From Neisseria subflava (GTDB lineage: Bacteria; Pseudomonadota; Gammaproteobacteria; Burkholderiales; Neisseriaceae), in contig NZ_POXP01000003.1 in NCBI RefSeq assembly GCF_003044935.1, positions 186,001 to 250,000 of the forward strand: a DNA stretch of 64,000 nt, given 5' to 3'. Both the position numbers and the translations under genes were made by a program. Each line of letters starts with the position of its first letter. Position 1 is the stretch's first letter. Positions 33,815 to 35,245 of this stretch are shown piece by piece. A model generated the notes under the pieces. That model made no database searches. It had not been told where the DNA came from and worked only from the letters and a program-made list of their open reading frames with translations.

Positions 33815-34288
33815 TTATCCGTTTGAGTTGTCTCGGCACATGGCGGGAATCATCATCGGATCCAGTGTTCCGCCGCATTGCCAGTTAAACAACCAAGTCG
33901 AGTCATTGTTAATTCGATAAGGAGTCAGGGTCAGGACTTTGCCTTTGTTCTGCCCTTTATCGAAAGGAATGCTGATTTTGCCTGTATCTGCTTCTACAGT
34001 TACGCCACCGTTTTGGATGTATGTACCGCCGATGCGTTGAGCGGTAACGCCGATTGAGCCTTGTTTACTGACATCCTCTGCATTGGGCAGGCGATTATTT
34101 ACCGCTGAGGCAATGCTGATTTCGGTTTTCAGGTCGTCGGCAAGGTATAGTGCTTCGGAGGCTTGCGCCCTACCGATATAGTTTTGGTAAGTGGGTATGG
34201 CGACAACAACCAGAATACCGAGGATGGCGATCACTATCATCAGCTCAATCAGGGTAAAACCTTTTTGGGCTTGAAATGGGGTATTCAT
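33815..34288 (-). CDS. Type IV pilin, second of a tandem pair
   Basis: 157 residues. Class III leader of nine residues then G-F cleavage ([35 protein letters not shown]), with Glu at +5. The C-terminal domain of about 115 residues has one cysteine pair (NWQCGGT and AMCRDN) enclosing a short D-region. It diverges from the first pilin after the N-terminal helix and is shorter in the D-region, so it is a distinct major-like pilin rather than a copy. A strong hairpin lies between the two, and no clear ribosome site or promoter precedes this one, so expression may be low. Confidence 0.85.
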   Translation of the reverse strand: MNTPFQAQKGFTLIELMIVIAILGILVVVAIPTYQNYIGRAQASEALYLADDLKTEISIASAVNNRLPNAEDVSKQGSIGVTAQRIGGTYIQNGGVTVEADTGKISIPFDKGQNKGKVLTLTPYRINNDSTWLFNWQCGGTLDPMMIPAMCRDNSNG

Positions 34289-34382: not shown

Positions 34383-34859
34383 TTAGCGGCAGTTAGCAGG
34401 AACGTGTTTAGGTTCGCCACCAGTAAATTTACAACTCCAACTCAAAGGAGCTTCTGAATCTGAGGTACCTGCTGTGGCACCATTTTGACTTGGGGTCAAT
34501 GTGAATACTGGATTTTCTGTTGCACCAGTGGCTTGGGTGGTAACTGTAATTACCCCACCATTTGCAATGTCAATACTCTTAACATATTTAGTTGGTACAA
34601 ATTTGTAGCCTGTATTACCCATTTTGGCTTTATCAGTTGTACCAGTAGTATAGGCTGTAACACTACTTAAGCCATCAAGAGCAGCAGCTGTTTCGGCTAC
34701 AGCTAATTTAGCAGGTTCAGCTAATCCCAAGCCTTCAGATACTTTGGCGCGGATAGTGTAGTCTTGGTACGCAGGCAGAGCGATTACGGCCAAGATGCCC
34801 AAGATGGCGATAACGATCATCAATTCGATCAGGGTGAAACCTTTTTGGATTGCTTTCAT
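34383..34859 (-). CDS. pilE: Major type IV pilin
   Basis: 158 residues. The leader MKAIQKG is cleaved before [36 protein letters not shown], the conserved neisserial PilE N-terminus with Glu+5. The globular domain carries one cysteine pair near the end (WSCKF and ANCR). There is no obvious array of silent pilS cassettes or a G4-forming sequence nearby, as expected of commensals that lack pilin antigenic variation. Its upstream region has an apparent sigma-54 promoter and repeated activator-like sites rather than an obvious sigma-70 promoter. pilE builds the fibre used for adhesion, twitching and DNA uptake, which fits the many uptake sequences here. Confidence 0.93.
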
Positions 34860-35023
34860 TGATTAAAACTCCAGTTTGAAAGTGTGAATAATTATGTTTA
34901 AGTAAAAAGTCCGTAATGTGCTTGGCACTATGTATTATGAGTAAACCATAAAGTAAGAAGGAATATACAGCTTCCGTCGGGCTTGCTGCTTTGAGGCTTG
35001 GGCCTTATCGGACGTGTTGTTTC

Positions 35024-35041
35024 AAGCAGGCAGTGTGCCAA
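35024..35041 (-). promoter_or_regulatory. Sigma-54 (-24/-12) promoter of pilE
   Basis: The minus strand reads TTGGCACACTGCCTGCTT: TTGGCAC at -24 and CTGCTT at -12, with exactly ten bases between the invariant GG (35039-35038) and GC (35027-35026). Predicted start near 35014 leaves a leader of about 155 bases. Sigma-54-driven pilE is established for N. elongata; in gonococcus a similar site is unused because rpoN is broken. Confidence 0.75.
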
Positions 35042-35169
35042 GTGTACAAAACTGGTTAAAAAATTTATTTTTTATTTTTTATTTATTGTTTTTATTGGGT
35101 TTATTTTTTAATTTTTAAATTTTGTGAGGTTTGTTTGAAAGTTTCAGGATTTTTGGGAAATTAGGGGGT

Positions 35170-35245
35170 TGACGTTTTTTGTCAGTTTTGTGTTTTTTGT
35201 GACAGGGAAGGGAGACAAGTTTGGGTGTGTGACGTTTTTTGTCAG
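35170..35245. promoter_or_regulatory. Repeated activator-site-like elements upstream of pilE
   Basis: TGACGTTTTTTGTCAG occurs exactly at 35170-35185 and again at 35230-35245, 60 bases apart; each has TGAC/GTCA ends. A third, partial copy GTTTTTTGTGACAG lies at 35192-35205. They are about 130-205 bases upstream of the -24/-12 promoter, the usual range for enhancer-binding activators of sigma-54. The protein that would bind is not in the window. Confidence 0.6.

Follow-up and report, generated by a model that had tools for sequence, protein, structure and literature searches.

The pilE gene of this Neisseria subflava genome lies on the minus strand of the window (the entire 64-kb stretch of DNA analyzed), with a second pilin gene behind it and a leader, a −24/−12 element and several upstream sites before it:

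33815..34288, minus strand: second pilin gene, directly 3′ of pilE, 157 aa (Pfam Pilin and N_methyl)
34383..34859, minus strand: pilE, major type IV pilin, 158 aa (Pfam Pilin and N_methyl)
34911..34925, minus strand: pilE leader element CCAAGCACATTACGG, 13/15 or better in 34/37 genomes
34955..34973, minus strand: pilE leader element AAGCTGTATATTCCTTCTT, 15/19 or better in 22/37 genomes
35041-35024, minus strand: sigma-54 promoter TTGGCACACTGCCTGCTT, −24 GG at 35039-35038 and −12 GC at 35027-35026
35057..35069, minus strand: best IHF-like match AATAAATTTTTTA, 8/9 of WATCAANNNNTTR, between operator and promoter
35170..35184, minus strand: proximal upstream activator site (UAS), predicted Npa operator TGACAAAAAACGTCA, 143 bp upstream of −24
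35189..35204, minus strand: middle half-site TGTCACAAAAAACACA, non-palindromic, invariant in the five close genomes aligned
35230..35244, minus strand: distal UAS, predicted Npa operator TGACAAAAAACGTCA, 203 bp upstream of −24

The second pilin (33815-34288) is divergent from PilE, and tandem pilins stand behind pilE in many of the surveyed loci (uncounted). The window displays DNA uptake sequences of the AG type (AGGCCGTCTGAA at 64 places, ATGCCGTCTGAA at 3), which presumably points away from the gonococcus-meningococcus group.

The original prediction, made from the letters of this stretch, had proposed a minus-strand sigma-54 promoter with exact GG-N10-GC spacing and exact upstream repeats 60 bp apart, and both are present. 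The promoter TTGGCACACTGCCTGCTT retains that spacing and matches 11/13 positions of YTGGCACGNNNNTTGCW, which we take to be the sigma-54 consensus (TGGCAC...TTGC) for the purpose of scoring; transcription is predicted to start near 35014. The repeat TGACGTTTTTTGTCAG occurs exactly on the plus strand at 35170-35185 and 35230-35245, 60 bp apart, the distances of 143 and 203 bp being counted from the minus-strand palindrome start to the first T of the promoter. A third partial copy, likewise claimed, does lie between the two (35204-35189), but it is a half-site and not a palindrome; it is a possible weak operator. The IHF-like match, scored against what we assume to be the IHF consensus (WATCAANNNNTTR), is weak because the surrounding stretch is A/T-rich. 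In an alignment of five close genomes (G000, G014, G036, G025 and G037), no base changes in the −24 GG, the −12 GC, the half-site or the proximal palindrome, and the distal palindrome has one base changed in G037.

Two perfect TGAC-N7-GTCA palindromes within 400 bp upstream of pilE were seen in none of 5000 exact dinucleotide shuffles, and at least one in 4 of the 5000; genome-wide there are 48 such places, only the two at pilE reading TGACGTTTTTTGTCA. Across the 64-kb window, there is no excess of the one-mismatch palindrome pattern (5 matches against 5.56 expected) or of the sigma-54 pattern with up to two mismatches (35 against 46.9). We rejected the sigma-54 consensus scan alone as evidence and used it only jointly with the palindrome, because of this lack of excess and because 7/10 of the zero-mismatch sites in the genome fall inside frames of at least 134 codons without an operator. 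With the sigma-54 match weak on its own, the promoter reading draws its weight from position and conservation. Of the 35 genomes whose RpoN keeps a complete DNA-binding domain and whose pilE upstream region is readable, 34 have both operator and sigma-54 site (thresholds fixed after those regions had been viewed), and the two occur together in 1 of 4000 shuffled upstream regions.

That this species keeps the sigma-54 mode, as had been proposed from the enhancer-dependent layout, is supported by a full-length rpoN and an Npa/Nps pair. The rpoN gene, whose integrity had been named as the point to check, is open rather than broken (451 aa from its ATG), codes for activator-interacting, core-binding and DNA-binding domains and is the sole rpoN match in the genome. 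The PilR-like activator to be sought also exists, as a PilR-type protein encoded with a sensor kinase between parC and an rsmJ-like gene (gene order parC, nps, npa, rsmJ-like, with 8 bases common to the frames of nps and npa). ParC scores above its NCBIfam cut-off, and RsmJ is the best match for the other neighbor, below its cut-off. Nps, encoded upstream of npa, combines a PilS-type membrane domain with a kinase domain, and Npa features a receiver domain (Asp56, taken to correspond to Asp58 of N. elongata), an AAA+ sigma-54 domain with a GSFTGA loop and a Fis-type HTH. Where the palindromes had been tentatively assigned to an unknown activator, we retain the reading as a predicted operator, but the activator already bears a name, Npa (PMC6528607).

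A scan for the sigma-54 activation domain yielded five matches in the genome, of which two are strong, namely Npa (C2:66899) and RtcR (C1:759309, its NCBIfam name); the remaining three match weakly (E 1.6e-6 to 4.5e-4) and are taken for other AAA+ proteins. RtcR has a sigma-54 site of its own, which points away from rtcR at a distance of 233 bp (TTGGCACGCTGTTGGCT; G000:C1:758500-758484, minus strand; L159 1501-1485). This site is followed by the T-arm-like strings GGTTCGAATCC and GGTTCGAGTCC; ARAGORN finds no tRNA near it, and the stretch is possibly the leader of an RtcR-controlled RNA-repair operon.

We are highly confident that pilE is driven here by sigma-54 and Npa by way of the two palindromes. 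In the mechanism that we propose, whose steps follow the tested N. elongata system and are read here from sequence alone, the sigma-54 RNA polymerase would transcribe pilE from the −24/−12 element at 35041-35024. Npa, phosphorylated by the kinase Nps, would bind the palindromes 143 and 203 bp upstream, loop to the closed complex, probably with the help of IHF, and open that complex by ATP hydrolysis.

The genus survey comprises 46 Neisseria genomes, with the pilE upstream region read in 40 (all but G010, G016, G023, G027, G031 and G032). The sole exception among the 35 genomes with the full RpoN domain is G001, whose sigma-54 site has a degenerate −12; counted among the 35 is G042, in which the open frame around the RpoN domain spans only 308 codons. 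In G015 and G020, nothing but the last 40 positions of RpoN is matched, yet both pass the loose pilE promoter thresholds; npa is broken in them too, resembling the pattern described for gonococcus and meningococcus. Despite its truncated rpoN and npa, G020 keeps a 13/13 sigma-54 site and the palindromes at pilE, and the presence of the elements therefore does not prove their use. This genome speaks for the elements being a relic in our strain as well, with a sigma-70 promoter serving pilE in the way of class II N. meningitidis; we consider this very improbable, as rpoN, nps and npa are all open here with the expected domains and the promoter elements are conserved in the five close genomes aligned. 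The pilE thresholds are not passed by G017 and G018, which have no RpoN match, or by the incomplete genome G034; the pilin that matches best in G017 and G018 is possibly not PilE. These two genomes lack a match to the RpoN DNA-binding domain and a pilE-type sigma-54 promoter, hold 0 palindromes and show nothing of Npa except receiver matches. Both are 100% complete (2.2 Mb for G017 and 2.1 Mb for G018), and their apparent loss is of another kind than the gene truncations in G015 and G020.

Beyond pilE, the strict palindrome TGACAAWAAAYGTCA has 56 matches in 29/46 genomes, against 1 for a reversed-pattern control. It is absent from 12 more genomes that have a match to RpoN and one to Npa (G001, G003, G004, G007, G010, G013, G022, G032, G035, G038, G044 and G045), which carry operator variants wherever pilE was read. 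For 52/56 strict palindromes, a sigma-54 site scoring 10/13 or better lies on the same strand within 320 bp (50/56 at 11/13 or better); the corresponding chance levels are 82 and 14 of 1880 exact dinucleotide shuffles of 47 neighborhoods, and 10.6% and 1.0% at positions of the window. The four palindromes without a site comprise two at a contig end in G023, one in G030 and one in G037, where a site does stand at the expected −173 with its GG changed to GA. The latter, a lipoprotein locus (L227, G037:C1:1662337) that differs from its relatives by this change in the −24 element, offers a natural test case.

This genome encodes, as do many of the others listed, a regulator of about 430 aa with an Npa-like receiver, which we take to be NtrX-like (here G000:C4:114442, frame of 432). 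Its wide presence, together with a limited literature search that found no report of Npa binding this exact palindrome, would suit a different regulator of this kind, instead of Npa, as the protein bound there. This appears improbable to us: G018 has a 428-aa version of the regulator but 0 palindromes, no RpoN DNA-binding domain and no Npa; the palindrome tracks sigma-54 sites; and N. elongata loses pilE expression when npa is deleted or the UAS mutated (PMC6528607, citing Rendon 2013). We posit instead that Npa has TGACAAWAAAYGTCA as its operator across much of the genus and that this palindrome delimits a small regulon of surface genes, with Npa acting on pilE and a candidate RNA from upstream, and on adhesins and a lipoprotein from downstream sites in their leaders. 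Taken whole, the pilE mechanism with this regulon extension is an explanation that we hold with good confidence.

The palindromes divide by the base at core position 7. Among the 35 with an A core, 32 have a sigma-54 site, and 31 of these lie 123-204 bp upstream of it (class A), at pilE and at the candidate non-coding RNA; in G041, the best site of one A-core palindrome is on the opposite side. A looser pattern, of an operator, a gap of 81-141 bp and a strong sigma-54 site, has 32 matches in 26/46 genomes and 0 when reversed, with 25 at pilE, 5 at adhesins and 2 at a non-coding locus; its half-site version recovers 26 matches in 16 genomes in the same places, again with 0 reversed. The five adhesin sites (G000:C2:3660-3536, G014, two in G025, and G036) precede proteins with ESPR and a YadA head (domains scanned in G000 and G014). 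In this genome, the near-match operator TGACAAAAAACGGCA stands 109 bp upstream of the sigma-54 site before such a YadA-type adhesin. These near-match promoters are 97% alike and thus amount to one evolutionary case. The 46 genomes hold 31 perfect sigma-54 sites (TTGGCACGNNNNTTGCW), compared with 7 for the reversed pattern; 10 are at pilE, and of the 19 others examined (the G034 and G038 sites being left out), 9 lie before ESPR-type adhesins, with ESPR scanned in four and the rest assigned by N-terminus. One perfect site, at an adhesin of G013, is without an operator. That the class A targets other than pilE share its operator and activator appears likely to us.

The T-core palindromes (AAGTGACAATAAAYGTCAG) number 21 and are placed differently: for 20 of them, the sigma-54 site lies upstream by 171-176 bp (15 loci) or 240 bp (5 loci) and reads into the palindrome (class B). 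The 21st is the G037 palindrome whose site has GA in place of GG. Judged by position only, this 20/21 placement is of the FleQ type. The targets are a BamE-domain lipoprotein (9 loci, including G000:C2:264640), an adhesin beginning MNK[NS]YR[ST]IWN (6 loci) and an adhesin beginning MNKIFKVVWNRT (5 loci, including G000:C6:3154). Domains were scanned in 2 of the lipoproteins, both with Pfam BamE, and in 4 class B-type adhesins, one of which (G045) has a palindrome with one other base, and the remainder were assigned by N-terminus; ESPR and a YadA head occur in 6/6 proteins scanned from the class B and near-match sets. Both adhesin genes of this genome run off contig ends, and the YadA anchor is seen only in a separate frame. 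Seven class B spacers are pairwise only 37-62% identical yet 133-138 bp long, and they diverge as much within the lipoprotein family as between families; the spacing therefore looks selected, with only the ends conserved. The consensus was written after pilE and 7/20 class B loci had been viewed, and these loci are not independent of it, nor are orthologous loci of one another; the other 13/20 are predictions that held after it was written.

The only NCBIfam match of the class B lipoprotein is TpgA (NF047726), to the first 122/268 positions. We rejected its identification as TpgA, as it fails the curated cut-off (47.8 against 350 bits) and the second half is missing. TpgA is the partner of trimeric autotransporter adhesins, a role known from Acinetobacter. 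The class B lipoprotein resembles its start and shares a promoter layout with trimeric adhesins. The resemblance fits the promoter shared with the adhesins and would favor the regulon reading.

By elimination, the activator of class B would be Npa, because in this genome only Npa and RtcR match the activation domain strongly and a sigma-54 site of its own lies near RtcR; in G008, G021 and G043, there is no second match to the ATPase part of Npa among the matches listed. Downstream enhancers are unusual, and this counts against the class B reading. The palindromes would also fall within the predicted transcript, some 145 bp (or 213 bp) from its start, and they differ from class A by a T for the A of core position 7 and in their flanks (TTG....AAGTGACAATAAAYGTCAG), so that two proteins are possible for the two classes. 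This location and these differences would suit a different regulator, or an elongation block in the leader, in place of a downstream enhancer. We deem such an alternative unlikely, though with a real share of the probability: the spacing to the sigma-54 site is nearly fixed across different genes with divergent spacers, 14/15 core positions are common to both classes, G008, G021 and G043 offer no second Npa-type ATPase among their listed matches, and downstream sites are known for FleQ (by the title of Jyot 2002, in PMC5026340). On balance we lean towards Npa acting from the class B sites.

The leader of pilE carries one copy of a 15-nt motif, CCAARYACATTACGG, at 34925-34911 here and at 13/15 or better in 34/37 genomes (G017, G018 and G034 being excluded from the leader motif counts); the folding of this leader is not unusual (z −1.38). 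The motif recurs at the candidate non-coding RNA. In G006, G026, G030 and G040, class A operators and a sigma-54 site precede about 570 nt with no ATG frame above 36 aa, which contain 5, 4, 3 and 4 copies of CCAARYACATTACGG respectively, against maxima of 3, 2, 2 and 2 in 1000 shuffles each. Indirect searches brought no such locus to light in this genome. The non-coding loci have no Rfam match at the gathering score, and the alignment of the four genomes holds 4/87 pairs with double changes, too few for structure beyond the terminator. The first bases of the stretch resemble pilE leaders and the leader motif is shared (both by eye), as a decayed duplicate of the pilE region would have it; such decay seems to us a doubtful account of the locus, given the 68% identity of G006 and G030 up to the terminator, the motif copies in excess of every shuffle maximum and the T-tailed stem that ends all four. 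As for the function of the candidate RNA, that it serves as a decoy for whatever binds the pilE mRNA is a guess. The two loose-pattern matches in G016 and G043 fall in a non-coding stretch adjoining acetate kinase. This short conserved stretch (L173 960-1170 in G043, L179 1043-1240 in G016), where the operator and sigma-54 promoter lead into a hairpin that is perfect in G043 (GTCATCACCATC-TTCG-GATGGTGATGAC), has one copy of the pilE leader motif.

The pilE result by itself extends the published RpoN-Npa mode to a further commensal, and the definition of the operator makes an Npa regulon testable. If the class B reading is true, type IV pili, large trimeric adhesins and a partner lipoprotein would be switched on together in commensals, from an unusual enhancer position. 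Once rpoN or npa was lost in the pathogens, pilE would have become free of this control and the remaining adhesion program would have fallen apart, and the change of pilE from sigma-54 to sigma-70 would be part of that wider break-up. The leader motif connects a conserved element of the pilE mRNA with a candidate regulatory RNA. Joined into one statement, namely an Npa/sigma-54 adhesion regulon of the genus, with pilE under upstream sites, YadA-type adhesins and a TpgA/BamE-like lipoprotein under sites about 172 or 240 bp downstream, and in some species an RNA of about 570 nt that could serve as a decoy, all broken up in pathogens, the predicted picture is one whose truth we would call evenly balanced.

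Major pilin genes are placed under comparable control outside the genus: P. aeruginosa pilA is governed by PilS/PilR and sigma-54. Kingella kingae pilA1 is likewise under PilS/PilR and sigma-54 control (PMC9592894, in its available part), and both share with the locus described here a two-component activator, sigma-54 and a major pilin as target, whereas the P. aeruginosa UAS TGTGACACTTTTTGACA, as given in the available text of PMC6755734, differs from our palindrome. Closer still is N. elongata, for which the original prediction had named sigma-54 control; this is established there for pilE, which is controlled by RpoN, IHF, Npa, Nps and a UAS, its expression being abolished by npa deletion or by UAS point mutations (PMC6528607, citing Rendon 2013). 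The same source describes the nps-npa pair downstream of parC, then rsmJ, in several commensals and places the other pilus genes tested in N. elongata outside RpoN-Npa control. Our locus has in common with that system the sigma-54 site, the UAS, npa and nps behind parC and an intact rpoN, and differs in being from another species, in an operator spelled out as a 15-bp palindrome with two full copies, and in the candidate adhesin and lipoprotein targets, which do not figure in the available text of that article, adhesins not being among the genes it tested. Class II pilE of N. meningitidis features consensus −12/−24 elements and the UAS TcTGACAaaaaacGtCA about 112 bp upstream (50/77 genomes; PMC6755734, available part), which is the same palindrome as here, but pilE is read there from sigma-70 and rpoN is atypical.

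Npa targets besides pilE have been suggested before, in the capsule region of N. musculi, with a putative Npa UAS and a sigma-54 site (PMC9140248, as available). Its UAS strings differ from our palindrome, and the main text of that article holds no words beginning with "autotransporter" or "trimeric"; a limited literature search likewise found no report of sigma-54 control of Neisseria trimeric autotransporters. The closest counterpart of the class B layout is FleQ of P. aeruginosa, a sigma-54 activator whose own sites can precede or follow that of RpoN (going by the title of Jyot 2002, as cited in PMC5026340) and hence stand on either side of the promoter, as proposed here; the activator and genes differ, and the spacing in Neisseria is nearly constant. 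Set against these systems, control of pilE by sigma-54 in a commensal Neisseria is not new, and this genome adds a member to it, whereas the reach of the operator beyond pilE may be the new part.
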